From Streptomyces zhihengii (GTDB lineage: Bacteria > Actinomycetota > Actinomycetes > Streptomycetales > Streptomycetaceae): DNA of 64,000 nt. A program made the translations under genes and the position numbers. Each line of letters begins with the position of its first letter. Position 1 is the stretch's first letter. The notes beneath the pieces were generated by a model that was given only the letters and a program-made list of their open reading frames with translations, did no database searches and was not told the origin of the DNA. The stretch spans positions 6,101,501 through 6,165,500 of the forward strand of contig NZ_JAFEJA010000001.1 in NCBI RefSeq assembly GCF_016919245.1. The letters run 5' to 3'. Below are positions 50,178 to 60,660 of the stretch, piece by piece.

Positions 50178-51164
50178 ATGGAAATCGCCTTCATCCCGAG
50201 CCCGTCGACCGGAGTGATCCACCTCGGACCGCTTCCGCTGCGCGGCTACGCCTTCTGCATCATCATCGGTGTCTTCGTCGCCGTCTGGTTCGGCAACAAG
50301 CGCTGGGTCGCCAGGGGCGGCAAGGCCGGCACGGTGGCCGACATCGCCGTGTGGGCCGTGCCCTTCGGCCTGGTCGGCGGACGCCTCTACCACGTGATCA
50401 CCGACTACCAGCTGTACTTCAGCGAGGGTGAGAACTGGGTCGACGCCTTCAAGATCTGGGAGGGCGGCCTCGGCATCTGGGGCGCCATCGCGCTCGGCGC
50501 GGTCGGTGCCTGGATCGGCTGCCGCCGCCGTGGCATCCCGCTGCCCGCCTGGGCGGACGCCCTCGCGCCGGCGATCGCCTTCGCGCAGGCGATCGGCCGC
50601 TGGGGCAACTGGTTCAACCAGGAGCTGTACGGCAAGGCGACCGACCTGCCGTGGGCCGTCAAGATCTCCGAGGGCGCGGGCCGCGAGGCCGGCACCTACC
50701 ACCCGACCTTCCTCTACGAGTCGCTGTGGTGCATCGGCGTGGCCCTGCTGGTCATCTGGGCCGACCGCCGCTTCAAGCTGGGCCACGGCCGGGCCTTCGC
50801 GCTCTACGTCGCCGCGTACTGCGCGGGCCGCGGCTGGATCGAGTACATGCGCGTCGACGAGGCGCACCACGTCCTCGGCCTCCGGCTGAACGTGTGGACG
50901 TCGATCCTGGTCTTCGTCCTGGCCGTCGCCTACATCGTCGTCTCGAACCGGCTGCGTCCGGGCCGTGAGGAGATCGTCGAGCCGGGCGCCGTGACCCTGG
51001 CGAAGCCGTCCCCGGAGGACGGCAAGGACGAGAAGGCCACGGACGACAAGGGCAAGGACGAGAAGGCCGACGCCGAGGCCGCCTCCGACGACACGGCGGA
51101 CGCCGGCGCGGGGTCGGACGACACGGCCGACGCCGGCGCGAAGCCGGCCGGTGGCAAGGGCTAG
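50178..51164 (+). CDS. lgt: Prolipoprotein diacylglyceryl transferase
   Basis: 328 residues, seven membrane segments. Lgt transfers diacylglycerol to the lipobox cysteine, the step before LspA. Key motifs are LRGYAFCIIIG, GGRLYH (H72) and the Lgt signature GRWGNWFNQELYG (140-152), plus ESLW and the late RGWIEYMR. Streptomyces Lgt proteins carry long charged tails; here residues about 275-328 are Lys/Asp/Glu/Ala-rich with a repeated DDTADAGA. ATG 50178; TAGCGT lies 10 nt upstream. Confidence 0.96.
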   Translation: MEIAFIPSPSTGVIHLGPLPLRGYAFCIIIGVFVAVWFGNKRWVARGGKAGTVADIAVWAVPFGLVGGRLYHVITDYQLYFSEGENWVDAFKIWEGGLGIWGAIALGAVGAWIGCRRRGIPLPAWADALAPAIAFAQAIGRWGNWFNQELYGKATDLPWAVKISEGAGREAGTYHPTFLYESLWCIGVALLVIWADRRFKLGHGRAFALYVAAYCAGRGWIEYMRVDEAHHVLGLRLNVWTSILVFVLAVAYIVVSNRLRPGREEIVEPGAVTLAKPSPEDGKDEKATDDKGKDEKADAEAASDDTADAGAGSDDTADAGAKPAGGKG

Positions 51165-51211
51165 GACCAGGGGCCGCCACGACGCCGCGACGGCGGCGAC
51201 GGACGGCCGGC

Positions 51212-51252
51212 ACGAGGGCCGCAGCGGGCACACTGCCCGCGGCGGCCCTCGT
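51212..51252. terminator. Convergent terminator between lgt and the CitE-like gene
   Basis: Outer arms ACGAGGGCCGC/GCGGCCCTCGT (11 bp) and inner arms GCGGGCA/TGCCCGC (7 bp) with a 3-nt loop, separated by one mismatch. It serves both convergent genes. Confidence 0.85.
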
Positions 51253-51287
51253 CCGTGTCCGCCCCGCTCCCCGGTGCCGGCTGCCGG

Positions 51288-52088
51288 TCAGGGGATCTCG
51301 CGGGCGGCGATCGCCAGGGTGCGCCGCGCCGCCGCGACCACCGCCGCGTCCACGAAGCGGCCGTCCGGGAGGGCCATGGCCCCGGTGTCCGACGCCGCCG
51401 CCTTGACGATCTCCTCCGCCGCGTCGATCTCCTCCGGCGTCGGCCGGTAGGCGCGTTCGATCACCGGGAGCTGGCGGGGGTGGATCGCCGCCCGGCCGAG
51501 GAAGCCGATCGAGCGGCCGTGCGCGCAGGAGGCGTGCAGCCCGTCCAGGTCGAGGATGTCGGGGAAGACGGACTGGGTGGGCGGTGCGAGCCCCGCCGCA
51601 CGCGCCGCGACCACGATCCGGGTGCGCGGCCAGTCCAGTCCGGTGTCCCCGCGCACCCCGAGGTCCGCCCGCAGGTCCGACTCCCCGAGCGCGATGCCGC
51701 GCAGCGCCTCGTGCGCGGTGGCGATGGCATAGGCGTGCTCCACGGCGAGCGCCGACTCCAGCAGCGCGTACAGCCCGACGCCCGGCGCCTCGGCGGCGAT
51801 CCGCTGCACATCGGTGGCGTAGGCGACCTTGGGGATGCGCAGGGCGGCCAGACCGGGCAGCCCCGCCAGCGCCGCGACGTCCCCGGGGGAGTCGATCCGC
51901 ACATGGACGGGGAGCGGCAGATGCTGCGACAGCAGTTCGGCCGTGGCCGCGAGGGCGTACTCCTTGCGGTGCCCGGCCACCGCGTCCTCCAGATCGACGA
52001 TGACGACGTCCGGACGGGCGGCGATCGCCTTGTGCACCACCTCCGGCCGGTCCCCGGGGGCGTAGAGCCAGGTCAGCGGGATGGTCAT
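51288..52088 (-). CDS. HpcH/CitE family CoA-ester lyase
   Basis: 266 residues, CitE-like (beta/alpha)8 lyase that cleaves or hydrolyses acyl-CoA esters such as citryl-, malyl- or citramalyl-CoA with Mg. Motifs are YAPGDRPEVVHKA, VVIVDLEDAVAGHRK (metal/CoA region), RIPKVAYATDVQ, LLESALAVEHA, ALGESDLRADLGV and GRAAIHPRQLPV. Last gene of the seven-gene minus-strand cassette; its ATG overlaps the CaiB-type stop. The actual ester is unknown. Confidence 0.9.
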   Translation of the reverse strand: MTIPLTWLYAPGDRPEVVHKAIAARPDVVIVDLEDAVAGHRKEYALAATAELLSQHLPLPVHVRIDSPGDVAALAGLPGLAALRIPKVAYATDVQRIAAEAPGVGLYALLESALAVEHAYAIATAHEALRGIALGESDLRADLGVRGDTGLDWPRTRIVVAARAAGLAPPTQSVFPDILDLDGLHASCAHGRSIGFLGRAAIHPRQLPVIERAYRPTPEEIDAAEEIVKAAASDTGAMALPDGRFVDAAVVAAARRTLAIAAREIP

Positions 52089-53299
52089 AGCGCTCCTTCG
52101 GTACGGAGTGCGGCGATGTCGGCGGGGGACATCCCGATCTCGGCCAGCACCGCGTCGGTGTCCGCGCCGTGCGGCCGGCCGGCCCAGCGGATGGAGCCGG
52201 GCGTCTCGGAGAGCCGGAAGAGGACGTTCTGCATCCGCAGCGTGCCGAGTTCGGGGTCGGGCACCTCGGTGATCGTCCCCAGCGCCTGGTACTGGGGATC
52301 GGCGTACACGTCCCGGATGTCGTAGACGGGGGCGATGGCCGCCTCGGCCTTCTCGAAGGCGGCGATCGCGTCGGCGCAGCTCTGCCGGGCGATCCAGCCG
52401 CCGACCGCCCCGTCCAGCTCGTCCGCGTGGTCGGCCCGCCCGCTGCCGGTGGCGAACCAGGGCTCGTCGACCAGCTCCGGCCGGCCGACCAGGTGCATCA
52501 CCCGCTCCGCGACGGACTGGGCGGACGTGGAGACGGCCACCCAGCCGCCGTCCGCCGTGCGGTAGATGTTCCGGGGCGCGTTGTTGCGGGAGCGGTTGCC
52601 GGTGCGGGGCTGCACATAGCCGAGCTGGTCGTACCAGAGCGCCTGCGGGCCGAGCACGGCCAGGATCGGCTCGATGATCGCCATGTCGACGACCTGGCCC
52701 CGGCCGGTGACGCCGCGCGCGGCCAGCGCGGTCATCACCGCGTACGCGGTGGCCAGCGCGGCGACCGAGTCGGCGAGACCGAACGGCGGCAGCGTGGGCG
52801 GCCCCTCGGGCTGTCCGGTCGCCGCCGCGAAACCGCTCATCGCCTCCGCGAGGGTGCCGAAACCGGGCCGGTGGGAGTACGGGCCGAACTGCCCGAAGCC
52901 CGTGATCCGGGCCAGCACCAGCCGGGGATTGGCCGCGCTGAGCTCCTCCCAGCCCAGCCCCCAGCGCTCCAGGGTGCCGGGGCGGAAGTTCTCGACGACC
53001 ACGTCCGCGGTGGCCGCCAGGCGCAGCAGGGTGTCGCGGCCGCCGGGGGTGGAGAGGTCCAGCGTGATGGTGCGCTTGTTGCGGCCGAGGACCTTCCACC
53101 ACAGGCCCACGCCGTCCTTGGCCGGCCCGTGCCCGCGGGAGGGGTCGGGGCGGGTGGGGTGCTCGACCTTGACGACCTCGGCCCCGTAGTCGCCGAGCAT
53201 CGTGGCGCACATCGGGCCGGCGAAGAGGGTGGCCAGGTCGAGGACGCGCAGGCCGCTCAGCGGCGGCGCGCCGTTCGGGGCGCTGCTCGGCGGCGTCAT
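52085..53299 (-). CDS. CaiB/BaiF family CoA transferase (type III)
   Basis: 404 residues. Type III CoA transferases move CoA between carboxylic acids through an aspartyl intermediate; here the likely catalytic Asp is in GRGQVVDMAIIEPI. Other family features are LRVLDLATLFAGPMCATMLGDYGAEVVKVE, GRNKRTITLDL, ENFRPGTLERWGLG and ITGFGQFGPYSHRPGF. It is overlapped on both sides by ATGA junctions (ribokinase upstream, CitE-like downstream), so it acts in the same pathway: activation of an acid to its CoA ester before cleavage. Confidence 0.9.
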   Translation of the reverse strand: MTPPSSAPNGAPPLSGLRVLDLATLFAGPMCATMLGDYGAEVVKVEHPTRPDPSRGHGPAKDGVGLWWKVLGRNKRTITLDLSTPGGRDTLLRLAATADVVVENFRPGTLERWGLGWEELSAANPRLVLARITGFGQFGPYSHRPGFGTLAEAMSGFAAATGQPEGPPTLPPFGLADSVAALATAYAVMTALAARGVTGRGQVVDMAIIEPILAVLGPQALWYDQLGYVQPRTGNRSRNNAPRNIYRTADGGWVAVSTSAQSVAERVMHLVGRPELVDEPWFATGSGRADHADELDGAVGGWIARQSCADAIAAFEKAEAAIAPVYDIRDVYADPQYQALGTITEVPDPELGTLRMQNVLFRLSETPGSIRWAGRPHGADTDAVLAEIGMSPADIAALRTEGAL

Positions 53300-54183
53300 G
53301 ACGCGGAGTCGATCTCGGGGCGGTACGGCATGGAGGTGGACGCTCCCGGGCGCTGGACGGACAGGGCCGCTGCGGCGCACGCCCAGGCGAGGGCCTGCTC
53401 CACGGGCCGGCCCTCGCCGAGGGCGACGGCGAGCGTGCCGACGAAGGTGTCCCCGGCGGCGGTGGTGTCGACGGCCGTGACCCGCGGGGCGGGCACGGTG
53501 ACGGGCGCGGTGTCCCGGGCGGCGTGGAGACAGCCCGCGGAGCCGAGCGTGATGACCACCTCGGGCACGCTGCGCAGCAGGGCGGCGGCGGCCTCGTACG
53601 GGTCGGCCACACCGGTGAGCGCGGCGGCCTCGTGCTCGTTGGGGACGAGCAGGTCGACCGCGGCGAACAGTTCGGGCGGCAGGGGCTGCACCGGTGAGGG
53701 CGTCAGCACGGTGCGCACCCCGTGCCGGCGGCCGGCCAGGGCGCCGTCGAGCACGGCGCCGAGGGGGAGTTCGAGCTGGAGCAGCAGCAGGTCGGCCGCG
53801 GCGATGACGGCCTCGTCGCCCGGGGCCAGCGCGGTGACGGTGCCGTTCGCGCCGGGGACGACGACGATCGAGTTCCCGCCGTCGTCGTCGACGACGATGT
53901 GCGCGGTGCCGGACGGGCCGTCCGCGGTGCGCAGCAGGTCGGTGTCGACTCCGGACGCCTTCAGGGTGTGCCGCAGCAGTGCGCCGAACTCGTCCGCGCC
54001 GACCGCCCCGATCATGGTGACGTCGCCGCCCGCGCGGGCCGCGGCGACGGCCTGGTTCGCCCCCTTGCCGCCGGGGACGGTGGCGAACTCCCTTCCGGTG
54101 ACGGTCTCTCCGCGCTTCGGCGGCTTCGCCACGTAGGCGACGAGGTCCATGTTGGTGCTGCCGAGCACCACGATGCCGGTCAT
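53296..54183 (-). CDS. rbsK: Ribokinase-like PfkB family sugar kinase
   Basis: 295 residues. The PfkB fold shows GSTNMDLVAYVAKPPKRGETVTG at the N-terminus, the substrate-binding VPGGKGANQAVAAARAG, VPNEHEAAALTG, and the catalytic VDTTAAGDTFVGTLA with the base Asp. These match ribokinase more closely than fructo- or adenosine kinases, so ribose or a nucleoside-derived ribosyl is the likely substrate. It sits directly behind four ADP-ribosylglycohydrolase genes, which points to phosphorylation of the ribose they release. Confidence 0.88.
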   Translation of the reverse strand: MTGIVVLGSTNMDLVAYVAKPPKRGETVTGREFATVPGGKGANQAVAAARAGGDVTMIGAVGADEFGALLRHTLKASGVDTDLLRTADGPSGTAHIVVDDDGGNSIVVVPGANGTVTALAPGDEAVIAAADLLLLQLELPLGAVLDGALAGRRHGVRTVLTPSPVQPLPPELFAAVDLLVPNEHEAAALTGVADPYEAAAALLRSVPEVVITLGSAGCLHAARDTAPVTVPAPRVTAVDTTAAGDTFVGTLAVALGEGRPVEQALAWACAAAALSVQRPGASTSMPYRPEIDSAS

Positions 54184-55886
54184 GGGCGCAGTGCCTCCTC
54201 CACAGTCAGACGGGCGAGGGTGTCGAATCCGACGCCGTCGAAGCCGGCGACCGAGGTCGCGAGCCGGTTCTTCAGCGGCGTCGTCCAGCGTTCGGGCAGC
54301 GCGTCGGGGGCGCCGGCCAGCAGCCCGGCGACCGAACCGGCGGTCGCCCCGTTGGAGTCGGTGTCCAGACCGCCGGACACCGCACGGCAGACGGACCCGG
54401 TGAAGTCGCCGTCCGCGTGGGTCAGCGCGGCGGCGAGCAGCGCGGCGTTCGGGACGGCGTGGACCCAGTGCAGCGCGCCGTACGCGTGGTGGATCCGGTC
54501 GACCGCCCGGTCGAAGTCCGCCTCCGCGCGGGCGGCGGCGATGCCGAAGCGGACGGCCCCGGCCAGCCGGGAGCGCGGCGGCACCACCGCGAGGCCGGCG
54601 GCCAGCGCCTCGTGCACCCCGGCGTCGCCGCCGGCCGCGGCGGCCACCGTGGCGGCGACGAACATGGCGCTGTAGACGCCGTTCGCGGTGTGGCTCAGCG
54701 CGGCGTCCCTGAAGGCCTGCTCCGCGGCGGCGGCCGGGGCCCCGGGGTTGGTCCAGCCGTGCACATCGGCACGGATCGCGGCGCCGATCCACTCCCGGAA
54801 CGGATTGCGGCGGACGGCCGTGAGCGGCGGCTCGACGCCGCACAGCAGGTTGCGGTAGGCGACGCGTTCCGCGGTGAAGGTCCGTCCGGCGGGGAGTTCG
54901 TCCAGCCACAGCGCGCCCACGTCGGCGGTGGTGAAGCGGCGGCCGTGCCGCCGCAGCAGCACCAGGCCGAGCAGCGGGTAGTTGAGGTCGTCGTCCTCCG
55001 GCATGCCGTCGATGTTCTCGGCCAGGCTGGTGGCGGCGCTGCGCCGGTTCCACGGGTGGGCGGCGGCCAGCTCCGCCGGCACCCCGCGCGCGGTGAACCA
55101 GTCGGCCAGCGGCCAGTTGCCCGTCGCACGGGCCAGCGCGCGGATGGCGTCCAGCGGCAGCTTCTCCACGGGCTTCCCCAGCAGACACCCCGCCGCCCGC
55201 CCGAGCCACGCGGCATGCAGCGCGTCCTCGCCGGGCGCGGCGGCGGTGCGGGGCGGGTGGGCGTGCGGGGCGTGTTCGGTGGGCCCGGCGGCGGTGCGGG
55301 GCGGCCGCCCGGGCCGGTCGGTCTGCGGCGCATCGCCGGGCGCGGCCCCGGTGCGGGGCGGCTGCCCGGACGGGCGGGGGTGGAGCGCGTCGCCGTGCGT
55401 GTCGTCGGGGCGGGGGGCCCGTCCGGGCCACGCGGTGCGCGCGGCGTCCTCGGTCGGCGCGGCACCGGCCGCCGCGCGGGACCGGGCCACCTCGCCGGCG
55501 TCGCCGCGCGGGGGACCGGCGGAACCGGACGCGTCCCCGCCGGGGAGCCCGGGGGTTCCCCGGCGGTCCGGCCCGGGACCGGCAGCCGACAGGTGCCCCA
55601 GGGCCGGGCAGGCCGCCGCGATCGACGACCAGTCCAGCGGTTCGGCGGCGGCCAAGGGAGAGGGGAGCGCGGCGAGTTCGTCGAGGAGGCGCTCCGCGAG
55701 CGCCCGGAGCCGGGGCGGGGCCGGCTCGGCGGAGGCGCCCGCACGCGCGGGCGCGGGGGCGCCGCCCGCCGCCCGCCAGCGGTCGCGGACATCGCCCGCG
55801 TCCCGCCCGTCCTCGTCCGCCTGCCGCAGCTCGTGCCCGATGAGGTCCTCGGGCTGGACCCAGGTCAGCCGCAGCGTCCCGGTCAT
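54180..55886 (-). CDS. ADP-ribosylglycohydrolase family protein, 568 aa with disordered insert
   Basis: First (promoter-distal) of four ARH-family paralogues in the cassette. The N-terminus (1-37, MTGTLRLTWVQPEDLIGHELRQ) is family-specific. A Pro/Ala/Gly-rich tract (about 100-225) follows, then the ARH core: WLGRAAGCLLGKPVEKLPLD, the metal-site acidic run GMPEDDDLNYPLLGL, and the C-terminal metal motif GGLDTDSNGATAGSVAGLL. The first-helix GD is replaced by GC, as in this LGRAAGCLLGKP subgroup. It overlaps both neighbours by 4 nt. Predicted to hydrolyse an N- or O-linked ADP-ribosyl or ribosyl bond; substrate unknown. Confidence 0.87.
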   Translation of the reverse strand: MTGTLRLTWVQPEDLIGHELRQADEDGRDAGDVRDRWRAAGGAPAPARAGASAEPAPPRLRALAERLLDELAALPSPLAAAEPLDWSSIAAACPALGHLSAAGPGPDRRGTPGLPGGDASGSAGPPRGDAGEVARSRAAAGAAPTEDAARTAWPGRAPRPDDTHGDALHPRPSGQPPRTGAAPGDAPQTDRPGRPPRTAAGPTEHAPHAHPPRTAAAPGEDALHAAWLGRAAGCLLGKPVEKLPLDAIRALARATGNWPLADWFTARGVPAELAAAHPWNRRSAATSLAENIDGMPEDDDLNYPLLGLVLLRRHGRRFTTADVGALWLDELPAGRTFTAERVAYRNLLCGVEPPLTAVRRNPFREWIGAAIRADVHGWTNPGAPAAAAEQAFRDAALSHTANGVYSAMFVAATVAAAAGGDAGVHEALAAGLAVVPPRSRLAGAVRFGIAAARAEADFDRAVDRIHHAYGALHWVHAVPNAALLAAALTHADGDFTGSVCRAVSGGLDTDSNGATAGSVAGLLAGAPDALPERWTTPLKNRLATSVAGFDGVGFDTLARLTVEEALRP

Positions 55887-57076
55887 CGGGCGTCCGCCAG
55901 CGCGGCGAACGCCGCCTCGTGGGCGCGGCGGCGGGCCAGGTCGCGCGCGTGGATCTCCCGGGCCACCGCCACGAGTTCGGCCGCGGGGGCGCGCAGGTCG
56001 ATCCGGCTGGCCCGGGCCACCTGCCGCGCCCAGTCGTCCGGCACCGCCCGCTCCCCGTGCATCGCCCCCACCAGGGCTCCGGCCATCGTCGCGATCGAGT
56101 CGCAGTCGCGGCCGTAGTTGACGCAGGCGAGCACGGTCCGCCGGAAGTCGCCCGCGCCGACGAGCAGCATGCCCAGGGCGATGGGCAGTTCCTCGATGGA
56201 GTGCAGCCGCGAGGGGCGGCGGGCGCCCAGCGACGGGGCCCGGTAGTCGGGGCCGACGGTGTCGAAGGGGGCCACCGCCGCGCGCAGCGGCGCGAGCGCC
56301 GACTCGAAGTCCGTGTGGCGGACGGCGGTCTCCGCGACGGCCTCGATCGCGGCCTGGGTGCCGTCCTTGGCCAGCGCCAGCGCCGTCTCCACGACAGTGG
56401 CCGGGGTCGCCCCCGGCGCCGCCGCCGCCGCGACGGCGGCCGCGAACACGCCCGCCGCCTCCCGCCCGTAGGAGGACTGGTGCGCCCCCGCGACGTCCAG
56501 CGCCTCGTGGTAGGCGGCGTCCGGGTCGGCGGCGTTGACGAGGCCGACCGGCGCCATGTACATCGCGGCACCGCAGTTGACGATGTTGCCGACCCCGGCC
56601 TCGCGGGGGTCGTTGTGGCCGTAGTGCAGCCGGTGCACCAGCCACTTCTCGGCGAGGAAGATCCGCTGGAGGGGGAGGGCCTCCGCCTCCAGTTCGGGGA
56701 TCCAGCGGGGGGTGGAGATCAGGTCGGGCACCAGATGGTCGGCGACGGCGTAGGCGTCCAGGTGGTCGCGGACCGCCGCGTAGACGCGCACCAGGGCGTG
56801 GGTGAGCAGGGTGTCGTCGGTGATGTGCCCGTTGCCCTTGTGGTACGGGGCGATCGGGCGCGCGGTGCGCCATGCGTCGCCGTTCCAGGGGCCGACGATG
56901 CCCTCGACCCGGCCGCCGTGCCGCTCGACGATCTGCTCCGGGGTGTAGCCCTCGACCGGCCCGCCGAGCGCGTCGCCGACGGCGGCACCGACCAGGCTGC
57001 CCGTGAGCCTGTCGTCGAGGGAGGGGGAGTCGGGGTTCGCCGATGGGGTGGCCGCGTTCGCCGTCGCTGTGGTCAT
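55883..57076 (-). CDS. ADP-ribosylglycohydrolase family protein, 397 aa
   Basis: A compact ARH with the full set of metal ligands: LVGAAVGDALGGPVEG (D35), GHITDDTLLTHALV (D87, D88) and NYGRDCDSIATMAGALVGA (D324, D326). NIVNCGAAMYMAPVGLVNAADP is also typical of bacterial ARH enzymes. It is the member most likely to be catalytically ordinary. A 202-nt gap separates it from the upstream paralogue. GACAAT lies 6 nt before its ATG, so it may have a leaderless promoter of its own in addition to read-through. Confidence 0.9.
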   Translation of the reverse strand: MTTATANAATPSANPDSPSLDDRLTGSLVGAAVGDALGGPVEGYTPEQIVERHGGRVEGIVGPWNGDAWRTARPIAPYHKGNGHITDDTLLTHALVRVYAAVRDHLDAYAVADHLVPDLISTPRWIPELEAEALPLQRIFLAEKWLVHRLHYGHNDPREAGVGNIVNCGAAMYMAPVGLVNAADPDAAYHEALDVAGAHQSSYGREAAGVFAAAVAAAAAPGATPATVVETALALAKDGTQAAIEAVAETAVRHTDFESALAPLRAAVAPFDTVGPDYRAPSLGARRPSRLHSIEELPIALGMLLVGAGDFRRTVLACVNYGRDCDSIATMAGALVGAMHGERAVPDDWARQVARASRIDLRAPAAELVAVAREIHARDLARRRAHEAAFAALADAR

Positions 57077-57278
57077 GGCCGGATTGTCCCCCTTGTTCCG
57101 TCGCGCGCGGCGTACCTCGCCCGGGGATTCGGCCACTCTCCCCGCCCCGGCCGCCCCGCGGACCTCCTGCCCGCGCGCGATGCGCGGCACGCGGCCGGGC
57201 GGCGCCCGCCCGGGGCGCGGAGGCCCGGGCGGCGGACCGGCCGGGGCGGCGCACGACGCCCGGGGGAGGCCCCGTCCG

Positions 57279-58646
57279 CTACCGGGGAAGCCCTCCGTCC
57301 CCGGGCCCGGTGTCCTCCGGGGCGGCGAGGAGGGCGGCCAGGGCCACCAGGTCGGTCCCGGCGAGGTGGGGGAGGACGCAGCCGGCGAGGGTGCGGCAGG
57401 CCTCGCGCCAGCCGGCGGGGACGCGGTCGCCGCCGCCCAGGACACCGGTCAGCGCCCCGGCCAGCGCGGGCGCGGAGTCCGCGACCCGGGAGAGGCACGC
57501 CGCCGTGGGCACGGCCTCGGACACCCGGCCCCGGGCGGCGAGGGTCACGGCGAGCGCCACCGGCACCGTCTCGGCGGCGGCGATGCCGTAGCTGTAGACG
57601 TGGTCGACGATCTGGTGCTCCAGCAGGGGCACCAGATCGAAGGCGCAGCCGGCCTCGCGGGCGAGGGCGAGCGCGTGCCGGGCGTTGCGGCCGATCTCGG
57701 TGGACTCGGGCAACTGGCCGAGCGCGGCGGCCACGGCGCCCTCGACGTCCGCGCCGCCGAGGGCGGCCGCGACGGCGGCGGCCATCGCCCGGGCGCCGTG
57801 CACCCCGTCCCCGTCCTGCGTGTAGCGGGCGTCGAACTCGGCGAGGGCGGCGGCCGCCGCCGGGTCGCCGGGGTGCACGACGGCGAGCACGGCGGCCCGT
57901 ACACAGGCGGCGTCGTCGAAGTAGTGCGGATTGTCGTGGCCGGTCGCCGGCGGGCGCAGGCCGGTGGCGAGGTTGCCGAGCCCCGCGCGCACGGAGATCC
58001 GGGCCCGCAGCGGCAGCACCGCCGACTCGACCTCCGGGGCCCGTGCGGCGGCCGCGGCGACCTGGCTCGCGAGGGCGTTCCACGCCAGGTCGACGGCGGC
58101 CCGGACCCGGCGGGCCGGCGACGGTCCGCGGACGTCGTCGCCGCGCGCGGTGAGCACGATCTGGGCCGCGAACGCGGCCCACTCGGCGTCGTCGGAGGGG
58201 CCGAGGCGCAGCGGCTCCGGCGGCTGGTTCAGCGCGATCGGCACCGGGAGCGTGGTGGTGGCGTTCTGTTCGGCGAACGTGTCGAGTTCCCGGGTGAGCC
58301 GGCGGGTCCACTCGGGCATCCGGCCCGCCCGGTGCCTCGCCGCCGGCCAGCCCGCGGCATCCCCGGCGGCGAGCCCGAGCAGCAGCCCTTCGAGCGGTCG
58401 CGCCACCGCCGTGCCGTGCCGTGCGGTCTCCGTCGCGGTGTGCCGGGCCGCTTCCGCTGTGCCGTGCGACCCCGTCTCCGTCGTGCCGTGCCGGGCCGCT
58501 TCCGCTGTGCCGTGCGACCCCGTCTCCGTCGTGCTGTGCCCGGCAGCTGCCGCCGTGCCGTGCCGGGCCGCCTCCTCCCCGGGGCCGGCGGGGCCCGTGC
58601 CCGCGCGGGCGGTGTCCAGGGGGCCGTGCGACGCGGGGGCGGTCAT
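57279..58646 (-). CDS. ADP-ribosylglycohydrolase family protein, 455 aa, degenerate metal site
   Basis: ARH fold with a Thr/Ala/His/Gly-rich repetitive N-terminal tail (1-82) containing two near-exact 16-residue repeats. Core motifs are altered: LGLAAGDAAGWPAA (D96 kept), LGPSDDAEWAAFA (SDDAE for TDDT) and SRVADSAPALAGALTG where the family has GRDxDT, so the first Asp of that pair is Val. Enzymes lacking this ligand may be weak or non-catalytic (binding, crystallin-like). It overlaps the upstream paralogue ATG to TGA. Confidence 0.85.
   Translation of the reverse strand: MTAPASHGPLDTARAGTGPAGPGEEAARHGTAAAAGHSTTETGSHGTAEAARHGTTETGSHGTAEAARHTATETARHGTAVARPLEGLLLGLAAGDAAGWPAARHRAGRMPEWTRRLTRELDTFAEQNATTTLPVPIALNQPPEPLRLGPSDDAEWAAFAAQIVLTARGDDVRGPSPARRVRAAVDLAWNALASQVAAAAARAPEVESAVLPLRARISVRAGLGNLATGLRPPATGHDNPHYFDDAACVRAAVLAVVHPGDPAAAAALAEFDARYTQDGDGVHGARAMAAAVAAALGGADVEGAVAAALGQLPESTEIGRNARHALALAREAGCAFDLVPLLEHQIVDHVYSYGIAAAETVPVALAVTLAARGRVSEAVPTAACLSRVADSAPALAGALTGVLGGGDRVPAGWREACRTLAGCVLPHLAGTDLVALAALLAAPEDTGPGDGGLPR
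58442..58537 (-). repeat. Two 48-bp direct repeats in the 57279-58646 gene
   Basis: Units 58442-58489 and 58490-58537 differ at one or two bases and encode two 16-residue units (HGTTETGSHGTAEAAR style) of the N-terminal tail. More diverged partial units flank them between about 58408 and 58585. Confidence 0.9.
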
Positions 58647-59698
58647 GAGGCCGACGGGGTCAGGAGCGCGGCCACGTCGAGGACGTGGTGGCCGCGCATC
58701 GAGGGGAGGCAGCTCCCGCGCACCGGGCCGATCGCGCCGGCCCATTCGGGCGGGATCGCGCCCGCGCCCTGGACCGCTCCCGCGAGCGCGCCCGCGACGG
58801 CCGCGGTGGTGTCGGCGTCGCGGCCCATGTTGACGGCCGTCAGCACCGAGGTGCGGAAGTCCCCGCGGGCCGCCGCGAACGCGCCGAACGCCAGCCCCAC
58901 CGCCTCCGGCGCCAGGTCGGTCCACGGGTAGCCGCCGATCACGACGGCCGAGCGCACCGCCCGCTCCATGGACAGCGCGTCCGGGTAGGTGCGGCCCGCC
59001 GCGATCACCCCGCGCCGCAGGGTGCGGGCGGTCCAGGAGTCCATCGGGACGACGGACAGCGCCGCCCCGATCACCCCCGCGGGCCCCGCGCCGCCCATCG
59101 CGGCCGCGACCCCCGCCGCCACCGCCCGGCCGCCGTGGATGCCCTCGCCGTCGTGGCTGACGCTGCCGTCGACGGTCACCAGCCGGGCCGCCTCCTCGGG
59201 GCAGCCGGCGGCGAAGACGCCGAACGGGGCCGCGCGCATGGCGAGCCCGTCGCTCCAGGCGTGCCGGTGCTGGGCGGAGATCGGCGCGGCCAGCCCCCGC
59301 CGCAGGTTCTCCAGCGTGCCGCGTTCGCTGAAGCCGGCTCCCCGGAACGGGCCCTCGTCCCGGTCGGCGATCCACTCGTGCCAGGCGGCCTCGACGTGGG
59401 CGACGGTCAGCTCCGAGCCGTGCCGGGCGAGCAGCAGGCCCGAGAGGATGGCGTACTCGGTGTCGTCGGTGCCGGCCGGATCGTCGCTGACGAAGCCCTC
59501 GATGCGGCCCCAGCGGCGGCGGATCTCGGACGGCCGCATGTTCTCGGCGGGGGCGCCGAGCGCGTCGCCCACCGCGAGGCCGAGCAGCGCCCCGCGTGCC
59601 CGGTCGGCACGGTCCGCGGGCGGGGTGACGGCCGTGGCGGGCGCCGACACCGGGACGGTGGCCGGCCCGCCGGTGGACGACTCGGTCAGCAACTCCAT
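58643..59698 (-). CDS. ADP-ribosylglycohydrolase family protein, 351 aa, first gene of the cassette
   Basis: Canonical ARH: ARGALLGLAVGDALGAPAENM (D45), PAGTDDTEYAI (D78, D79) and VNMGRDADTTAAVAGALAGAVQG (D294, D296), so both metal pairs are intact. VDGSVSHDGEGIHGGRAVAAGVAAA is a further conserved loop. It begins the seven-gene minus-strand unit. The ATG at 59698 has only a modest AAAGGG upstream. A perfect AGAAACGTTTCT palindrome lies 68 nt upstream in the divergent promoter region. Confidence 0.9.
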   Translation of the reverse strand: MELLTESSTGGPATVPVSAPATAVTPPADRADRARGALLGLAVGDALGAPAENMRPSEIRRRWGRIEGFVSDDPAGTDDTEYAILSGLLLARHGSELTVAHVEAAWHEWIADRDEGPFRGAGFSERGTLENLRRGLAAPISAQHRHAWSDGLAMRAAPFGVFAAGCPEEAARLVTVDGSVSHDGEGIHGGRAVAAGVAAAMGGAGPAGVIGAALSVVPMDSWTARTLRRGVIAAGRTYPDALSMERAVRSAVVIGGYPWTDLAPEAVGLAFGAFAAARGDFRTSVLTAVNMGRDADTTAAVAGALAGAVQGAGAIPPEWAGAIGPVRGSCLPSMRGHHVLDVAALLTPSAS

Positions 59699-59765
59699 GT
59701 GGGGCCCTTTCGCGCGCGCGAGCCTGGTCCCCGATGTGTGCCACGCGCCGCCCGGCCCTCATCAG

Positions 59766-59777
59766 AGAAACGTTTCT
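59766..59777. promoter_or_regulatory. LacI-family-type operator upstream of the ARH cassette
   Basis: AGAAACGTTTCT is a perfect 12-bp palindrome centred on CG, the form bound by LacI/GalR-family sugar-responsive repressors. It lies between the divergent ARH cassette and the VIT/CCC1 gene; distance favours the cassette (68 nt to its ATG). No LacI-family gene is in the window. Confidence 0.65.
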
Positions 59778-59931
59778 GTCACCCGACCCGGTGTATGCCG
59801 GGACCCCTTCGAGGGCGCCTCCCGGCCCCAGGTAAGTACGGCCTGCCTTGCTGGCGCGCCCCTTACATCCGGCGTACGTTCGAGGTCAGAGGGCCGCGGT
59901 GCACGAGCATCGCGGTCGAGAGGGGAGAGCT

Positions 59932-60660
59932 GTGTCCATCATCGAGACCGAGGCCGCGCTGCACGAGGCGCACCGCGACAACCACACCCACCGCGACGTG
60001 AACGGCGGCTGGCTGCGTCCTGCGGTGTTCGGGGCGATGGACGGACTCGTCTCCAACCTGGCGCTGATGACCGGCGTCGCAGGCGGCGCCGCCTCCCAGC
60101 AGACCATCGTCGTCACGGGCCTCGCCGGCCTGGCCGCGGGCGCGTTCTCCATGGCGGCCGGCGAGTACACCTCGGTCGCCTCGCAGCGCGAACTGGTCCA
60201 GGCCGAGCTCGACGTCGAGCGCCGTGAGCTGCGCAGGCACCCGGTGGACGAGATGGAGGAGCTCGCCGCGCTGTACACCGCCCGGGGCGTGGAGCCCGAG
60301 CTCGCCCGCGAGGTGGCGATGCAGCTCTCCAGGGACCCCGAGCAGGCGCTGGAGATCCACGCCCGCGAGGAGCTCGGCATCGACCCGGACGACCTCCCGT
60401 CGCCCACCGTCGCCGCCGTCTCCTCCTTCGGCTCGTTCGCCCTCGGCGCGCTGCTGCCGGTGCTGCCGTACCTGCTCGGCGCGAGCGCCCTGTGGCCCGC
60501 CGTGCTGCTCGCCCTCGCCGGGCTGTTCGCCTGCGGAGCCCTGGTGGCGAAGGTCACGGCCCGCGGCTGGCTGTTCAGCGGGATGCGCCAGCTCGCGCTC
60601 GGCGGCGCCGCCGCGGCGGTCACCTACGGGCTGGGCATGCTGATCGGCGCCGCGGTCTGA
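59932..60660 (+). CDS. VIT1/CCC1 family transporter-like membrane protein
   Basis: 242 residues. N-terminal GGWLRPAVFGAMDGLVSNLALMTGVAGG and TGLAGLAAGAFSMAAGEYTSVASQRE are the first two helices of the vacuolar iron transporter family. A charged Glu-rich cytoplasmic insert (about 95-145) corresponds to the metal-binding domain, and three more helices follow (about 160-242). It probably moves or sequesters Fe or Mn. GTG 59932 has GAGGGGAG upstream. It is monocistronic, ending in a strong hairpin. Confidence 0.9.
   Translation: MSIIETEAALHEAHRDNHTHRDVNGGWLRPAVFGAMDGLVSNLALMTGVAGGAASQQTIVVTGLAGLAAGAFSMAAGEYTSVASQRELVQAELDVERRELRRHPVDEMEELAALYTARGVEPELAREVAMQLSRDPEQALEIHAREELGIDPDDLPSPTVAAVSSFGSFALGALLPVLPYLLGASALWPAVLLALAGLFACGALVAKVTARGWLFSGMRQLALGGAAAAVTYGLGMLIGAAV

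Follow-up and report, generated by a model that had tools for sequence, protein, structure and literature searches.

A 64,000-nucleotide window of the Streptomyces zhihengii genome (contig NZ_JAFEJA010000001.1, positions 6,101,501 to 6,165,500) contained at 51288-59698 a cassette of seven minus-strand genes in the order ARH1-ARH2-ARH3-ARH4-ribokinase-CaiB-CitE, coding for four ADP-ribosylglycohydrolase (ARH) family proteins, a ribokinase, a CaiB-type CoA-transferase, and a CitE-type lyase. The cassette is interpreted, with a probability of roughly 0.55, as the half of a catabolic route that supplies its intracellular enzymes, the compound degraded being a ribofuranosyl-type conjugate. Judged by gene content, the seven-gene array is not a chance assembly because it is conserved over several actinobacterial families, and it consists of an unvarying core of four ARH genes plus modules that can be lost, not of a single fixed pathway of seven genes, as the CoA genes were absent in Nonomuraea and the ribokinase from some other loci. 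A first-pass annotation of this DNA had proposed a catabolic or salvage route for a ribosylated compound; the proposal gained from the importer and LacI regulator found beside the relatives' ARH genes in 66/66 loci, from a kinase passing the TIGR02152 model, and from an RbsR-like LacI, and it lost ground in that the CoA genes and the ribokinase proved detachable.

Clusters outside Streptomyces displayed the genes that accompany the ARH core. A class sample of 98 genomes held 11 with an ARH3 match at E <= 1e-15 (including the S. zhihengii genome), six of them outside the genus, and in the four non-genus stretches that reached far enough ARH1 was preceded by genes for a LacI regulator, permeases, and a binding protein. 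A contig scan with four non-Streptomyces ARH3 queries, from which the best 80 of 205 relatives were taken, gave 80 ARH3-anchored loci with Nonomuraea strongly represented (36); 66 were fully visible and 14 were set aside because their flanks were too short, including L077 in which no ARH4 was seen. Hosts were Jiangella, Phytoactinopolyspora, Nonomuraea, Microbispora, Streptosporangium, Sphaerisporangium, Microtetraspora, Actinomadura, Actinoallomurus, Actinocatenispora, Pseudonocardia, Actinopolymorpha, and others. The gene order was LacI, MalF/MalG-type permeases, sugar-binding protein (SBP), ARH1-4, ribokinase, sometimes an FGE-domain protein, CaiB, and CitE. Both ARH1-4 and LacI-MalF-MalG-SBP were complete and co-directional in all 66 fully visible loci, each of which had the make-up of a LacI/MalFG-type operon (regulator, two permeases, binding protein, and hydrolases in one direction), along with the ribokinase in 62, CaiB in 37, CitE in 36, and the approximately 650-aa FGE-domain protein in nine. 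The linked transporter or regulator for which the first-pass annotation had recommended a search was therefore found in the relatives, whereas the window locus lacked this linkage and the transporter orthologues of its own genome lay at another site. Start/stop overlaps were available at ARH2-ARH3 in 47/66 loci, ARH3-ARH4 in 49/66, ARH4-ribokinase in 44/62, and SBP-ARH1 in 37/66, and less often at ARH1-ARH2 (10/66), ribokinase-CaiB (15/25), and CaiB-CitE (17/36).

Within Streptomyces, ARH3 orthologues (threshold E <= 1e-60) were identified in 11 of 12 same-genus relatives and in four of five other same-genus genomes of the class sample. Thirteen of these 15 loci covered the run of enzyme genes from end to end; G001 stopped at a contig edge and the G012 cassette was split, ARH1 keeping its usual position while ARH2-ARH3 lay some 1.7 Mb from it (L033, L034, and L171). 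All four ARHs were present in 12 of the 13, ARH2 being masked in the other, and CaiB plus CitE in 13/13, with one CitE partly masked. An interpretation of the G010 locus as a decayed cassette was dropped, since masked stretches lay where genes seemed missing. The Streptomyces cassette sits in a conserved gltB-trp region where VIT1 and glutamate synthase genes adjoined it in 13/13 loci and a DsbA-like gene in 12 (one contig ends).

The first-pass annotation's four side-by-side ARH family members were borne out by Pfam, which assigned all four proteins to PF03747 with 191, 118, 179, and 139 bits for ARH1 to ARH4 (cut-off 26.2) and one cassette protein each to PfkB, CoA_transf_3, and HpcH_HpaI. 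The whole genome contained eight PF03747 matches, four of them in the cassette; the four elsewhere were L001, L002, L004, and L008, the last being partial. Pairwise identity among the cassette ARHs was 30-47% over aligned stretches of 42-355 residues, and a tree built from 93 rows, 90 of them different, placed each ARH in one group with its counterparts from other genera, the ARH2, ARH3, and ARH4 groups being starred and the ARH1 group weakly supported by SH-aLRT (98/61). To judge from this tree, the quartet is therefore old and not a set of recent duplicates. The metal motif was complete in ARH1 (Glu52, TDDT 77-80, and DADT 294-297) and ARH3 (Glu42, TDDT 86-89, and DCDS 324-327), and the ARH4 hydrolase domain carried EDDD 297-300 and DTDS 508-511. 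In alignments including the window proteins (95, 95, 102, and 97 rows for ARH1-4, with rows of <=200 aa excluded and some genomes entered twice), the Glu, DD, and DxD residues were kept in 94-95/95 rows of ARH1, 100-101/102 of ARH3, and 96-97/97 of ARH4, exceptions being mostly gaps. ARH2 departed from this pattern in 95/95 rows, with no Glu at the Glu position and no Asp at the first Asp of DxD (Ala103 and Val388 in the window protein) while DD and the second Asp of DxD were retained. Roles at the metal site are assigned to these residues by analogy with earlier work on DraG and ARH3. ARH1, ARH3, and ARH4 would be metal-dependent on such family knowledge, and ARH2 is probably an altered or non-catalytic partner because two metal-site acids were lost in every row.

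These proteins share the PF03747 profile with DraG, human ARH3, MJ1187, and Tri1, as well as the metal motifs in ARH1, ARH3, and ARH4, yet they differ in the company of a sugar-uptake operon, in forming four ordered paralogues with one degenerate, and in their scores. ARH1 and ARH3 reached 72.6 and 53.4 bits against the DraG model TIGR02662 (cut-off 337) and 50.6 and 47.8 bits against the Tri1 model NF041672 (cut-off 490), all far below, and ARH2 and ARH4 displayed no match to either model. A single-sequence search with ARH4 among solved structures found no relative, and its nearest solved structures in a profile search were of the ARH family. SCO2028 to SCO2031 of S. coelicolor presumably correspond to ARH1-4 in order, given their numbering and the gene order of S. 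coelicolor. A reversal of ADP-ribosylation, in which proteins, nucleic acids, or antibiotics would be freed of ADP-ribose by the four ARHs while the remaining genes would be incidental, agrees with PF03747 membership, with DraG as the best solved match of ARH1, with a NUDIX protein encoded close to the cassette on the other strand in four Nonomuraea loci (a weak point), and with the cataloguing of SCO2028, SCO2029, and SCO2030 as uncharacterised DraG/ARH homologues in one paper (PMC5087735), to which a second adds SCO2031 (PMC9411070). This explanation is nevertheless judged distinctly improbable in view of the LacI and MalFG-type sugar importer in all 66 full loci, 62 of which had a linked ribokinase, and of the lack of any ADP-ribosyltransferase or macrodomain protein among ten representative recurrent neighbours scanned against Pfam. 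In addition, PMC13036486 reports that the purified proteins SCO2028 and SCO2030 were without detectable activity on a single substrate, synthetic U-alpha-ADPr, which fits a metabolic role without proving one.

The kinase passed the TIGR02152 ribokinase model with 306.6 bits (cut-off 299.65), and the best 15 of its 88 PDB matches were all named ribokinase. Motifs that we take to form the ribose pocket were retained in 88-90/90 rows. The gene was present in all 28 full Nonomuraea loci and in 34 of the 38 other full loci. This evidence bears on a rival in which the ARHs and importer would handle an oligosaccharide of a furanose other than ribose (e.g. arabinofuranose or a modified pentose), with the ribokinase and CoA genes serving side products. 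The solved relatives of the SBP, mostly named sugar-binding proteins, include an arabino-oligosaccharide-binding protein in sixth rank, the ribokinase is dispensable, and the 650-aa FGE-domain protein joins the cluster in 9/66 loci, all of which would suit a non-ribose sugar; the TIGR02152 result, the putative ribose-pocket motifs, and the RbsR-like character of the scanned regulator make it rather unlikely. The FGE-domain protein was located between the kinase (or ARH4) and CaiB, and Pfam assigned only its C-terminal part, as an FGE-sulfatase-like domain (L057 5380-7359 and eight other full loci). The best 120 of its 1,779 relatives were named FGE/SUMF1-type or hypothetical, many from Micromonospora, and no match was found in the S. 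zhihengii genome at E 1e-20 in a search run without a positive control.

The importer was also identified in Streptomyces. The S. zhihengii genome encoded an SBP orthologue at 1.756 Mb with 49% identity (next best 28%) and, beside it and away from the cassette, MalG and MalF orthologues with 61%; SBP-MalF-MalG were kept as a trio in 8/8 Streptomyces loci read, including this one, with no LacI match beside the trio in any of the eight. The SBP (E <= 1e-60) occurred in 9/21 genomes including S. zhihengii, all nine among the 12 with an ARH3 orthologue and none among the other nine (Fisher p = 0.001; a weak test, as eight of the nine ARH3-less genomes lie outside the genus). The one cassette LacI scanned, from Jiangella (L057), had RbsR models in first and fourth rank of its NCBIfam matches. 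In the other genera, an AACGTT core was found within 300 nt upstream of LacI in 67/67 loci compared to 2/67 control stretches and centred a palindrome in 64/68 loci, which among the 40 rows listed had the form GGAAACGTTTCC mainly in Jiangellaceae and GTAAACGTTTAC mainly in Streptosporangiaceae. The window palindrome AGAAACGTTTCT, picked out by eye before the cross-genus comparison, matches these in its core and is the sole exact copy in its own genome.

Several observations weigh against the catabolic reading. The Streptomyces importer is unlinked to the cassette, and the SBP was missing from one (G003) of ten genus genomes that are at least 93% complete with an unsplit cassette, from split-cassette G012, and from the 79%-complete G001. 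The S. zhihengii genome had no outstanding LacI orthologue, its six matches lying at 34-39%, and the Jiangella LacI scored far below the RbsR cut-offs. An operator conserved throughout Streptomyces was sought and not found: of the 15 other regions upstream of ARH1, 14 lacked the palindrome and the remaining one had a related version with one mismatch, and an AACGTT-like core was absent upstream of MalF in 8/8 transporter loci. The kinase failed a second ribokinase model, NF008353 (PRK11142), with 263.7 bits against a cut-off of 341. Among the 13 Streptomyces loci the ribokinase was present in nine, absent in three, and masked in one, and it was absent from 4/38 non-Nonomuraea loci, so that ribose release would not be tied to a linked kinase. 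Finally, the G005 ARH3 reads in two overlapping frames.

The CoA genes supply points on both sides. CaiB matched PF02515 with 413.9 bits, above the family cut-off, and its Asp205, which we take to be the nucleophile, was invariant in 61/61 rows, as were Arg64, Glu111, Asp138, and Asp247 of CitE in 57/57 rows; the invariant charged residues of both are presumably catalytic. The best models were succinate-glutarate CoA-transferase (242.5 bits, cut-off 750) and formyl-CoA transferase for CaiB, and RipC (128 bits, cut-off 375) and CitE for CitE, all below their cut-offs. CaiB and CitE were absent in 28/28 fully visible Nonomuraea cassettes, and in the six genomes tested out of the 36 Nonomuraea loci a separate CaiB-CitE pair with a divergent GntR gene was located away from the cassette in 6/6. 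The best Nonomuraea CaiB match had 67-68% identity to the Microbispora query with CitE adjoining; further weaker matches numbered two in one Nonomuraea genome and one in another, and the two genomes used for comparison, whose CaiB lies in the cassette, gave no other match at E 1e-60. Trees (that of CaiB read in part) placed the separate Nonomuraea pairs in clades of their own outside the same-family cassette clade, and thus gave no clear support for a simple relocation of the cassette pair in Nonomuraea. One such pair (L149 8530-12673) was accompanied by a GntR regulator and a DctM-family permease, an arrangement that suggests an organic-acid uptake module.

CaiB-CitE is thus, as far as trees and gene content can tell, a self-standing and optional module, since the separate pairs form their own clades and Nonomuraea cassettes lack it. 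An independent organic-acid pathway that is co-transcribed with the ARH cluster and stands outside its pathway is considered unlikely, if less so than the two rivals above. The separate GntR-linked Nonomuraea pairs, once beside the DctM-type permease, and the bare Nonomuraea cassettes speak for such independence. Against it, both genes were at the cassette in 36/38 non-Nonomuraea and 13/13 Streptomyces loci, they stayed behind ARH4, the ribokinase, or the FGE-domain protein even where the ribokinase was lost, and the cassette CaiB and CitE trees broadly followed host groups, with exceptions such as an Actinocatenispora CaiB nested with Phytoactinopolyspora. The first-pass annotation had named free separation of the ARH and CoA genes as an outcome that would undo its proposal, and this holds in part: they stand apart in all 28 full Nonomuraea loci and remain together in nearly all the others.

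The favoured catabolic pathway would run as follows. A LacI-regulated MalFG-type ABC importer would take in the compound, a step suggested by the gene company of a sugar importer and LacI beside the ARHs. ARH1, ARH3, and ARH4 would cut glycosidic bonds as metal-dependent hydrolases, with the degenerate ARH2 as a structural or specificity partner; the four may cut different bonds or form complexes. The ribokinase would phosphorylate the released ribose, as the passed kinase model and the one RbsR-like regulator (below cut-off) indicate. Where CaiB-CitE are present, the enzyme families of the two suggest that the released hydroxy acid would receive CoA and that the ester would then be split into acetyl-CoA and an oxo acid; the hydroxy acid should already carry a beta-hydroxyl since the cassette has no hydratase gene. 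Gene content and order, conservation, the kept or lost motifs, and the company of a sugar importer and LacI are observed; the nature of the substrate and of its ribose bond, what becomes of the acid, and the part played by ARH2 are inferred from them, the substrate presumably being a riboside and the acid its aglycone. Candidate substrates (ribosyl adenosine from poly-ADP-ribose, methanopterin fragments, and bacillithiol-like malate glycosides) were considered and none fits all genes. A bolder version, held as tentative and rather doubtful, is that in actinobacteria the ARH fold has been turned into a fixed four-member intracellular ribosidase set for an abundant, unrecognised soil metabolite joining a ribofuranosyl group to a beta-hydroxy acid, with ARH2 as the non-catalytic or single-metal subunit of a heteromeric enzyme.

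The features of the window locus are listed below. The seven minus-strand genes overlapping at all junctions but one, as first annotated, were confirmed, with an ATGA overlap at 5/6 junctions and the ARH2-ARH3 gap as the exception. In other Streptomyces these two genes overlapped or lay <=10 nt apart in 12/12 loci with both genes (start codons picked mechanically; G005 excluded for its split ARH3).

Table. Coordinates within the 64,000-nucleotide window of the cassette genes and associated features.
Feature	Position	Strand	Description
ARH1	58643..59698	-	351 aa, PF03747; best solved match DraG
ARH2	57279..58646	-	455 aa, PF03747; active site degenerate
ARH3	55883..57076	-	397 aa, PF03747
ARH4	54180..55886	-	568 aa; conserved N-terminal segment LTWVQPEDL, low-complexity linker, PF03747 domain
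Ribokinase	53296..54183	-	PfkB; TIGR02152 cut-off passed
CaiB-type class III CoA-transferase	52085..53299	-	CoA_transf_3 (PF02515); conserved Asp205
CitE/RipC-type lyase	51288..52088	-	HpcH_HpaI; putative beta-hydroxyacyl-CoA lyase
Perfect 12-bp palindrome AGAAACGTTTCT	59766..59777	.	68-79 nt upstream of ARH1; candidate relic LacI-type operator
ARH2/ARH3 gap	57077..57278	-	202 nt, non-coding

One flank of the cassette held genes for VIT1 and glutamate synthase; the other held a DsbA-like gene, one for tryptophan synthase alpha, and a trpB-like gene of the PALP family. A scan of 51100-60000 for sigma-70-type promoters and terminators returned none, a result that carries little meaning as shuffled sequence was expected to give 0.0 and 0.6. 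The N-terminal extension of ARH2 (58400-58600) contained an imperfect in-frame repeat of approximately HGTTETGSHGTAEAAR outside the PF03747 domain, spotted by eye in the translation, and the low-complexity linker of ARH4 between the N-terminal segment and the hydrolase domain was long, many listed relatives being about 100 residues shorter. Downstream of Nonomuraea cassettes (L087 13377-18597), a GntR/FCD regulator and a LeuA-like alpha-isopropylmalate synthase recurred that are perhaps housekeeping genes.

Comparison with known systems indicated that the parts belong to known families and that their layout is like that of LacI-regulated sugar operons. A looser parallel is E. coli yegTUV (PMC10819704). 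The available portion of that source describes yegTUV-yegW as encoding an ARH-family YegU, the sugar kinase YegV, a nucleoside-type symporter, and a GntR regulator, with functions unknown; the system differs in having one ARH, an MFS transporter, and GntR compared to four ARHs, an ABC importer, and LacI, and no CoA genes are mentioned in that portion (PMC10819704). The literature listings searched contained no account of the cluster. Among other known systems, the rbs operon likewise pairs a ribokinase with an RbsR-type regulator of the LacI family; the cassette clusters differ in their importer, which is of MalFG type and has an SBP_bac_1 protein, and in their four hydrolases and acyl-CoA module. 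Actinobacterial LacI/MalFG glycoside operons have the same regulator, two permeases, binding protein, intracellular hydrolases, and operator-like palindrome, but the constant hydrolases here are of the ARH family and not classical glycoside hydrolases. The itaconate/citramalate route (CoA transferase and RipC/Ccl lyase) is alike in its class III CoA-transferase, in RipC as the best CitE model, and in the solved relatives of both enzymes, and differs in that the cassette CaiB and CitE score well below curated cut-offs and that a hydratase gene is absent from the cassette.

The finding bears on how the ARH family is counted in Streptomyces. In PMC5087735, the number of such hydrolases in S. coelicolor is taken as a sign of a lively ADP-ribosylation metabolism, and by numbering the cassette genes appear to account for three of the seven DraG/ARH homologues given there or four of the eight in PMC9411070. 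If the cassette ARHs are indeed sugar-catabolic, the number of ADP-ribosylation hydrolases in S. coelicolor would shrink and the ARH family would gain a metabolic role. The conserved uptake-and-hydrolysis cluster in several actinobacterial families also suggests a carbon source that has gone unrecognised, and the cluster's binding protein and LacI regulator offer direct handles for finding the ligand.

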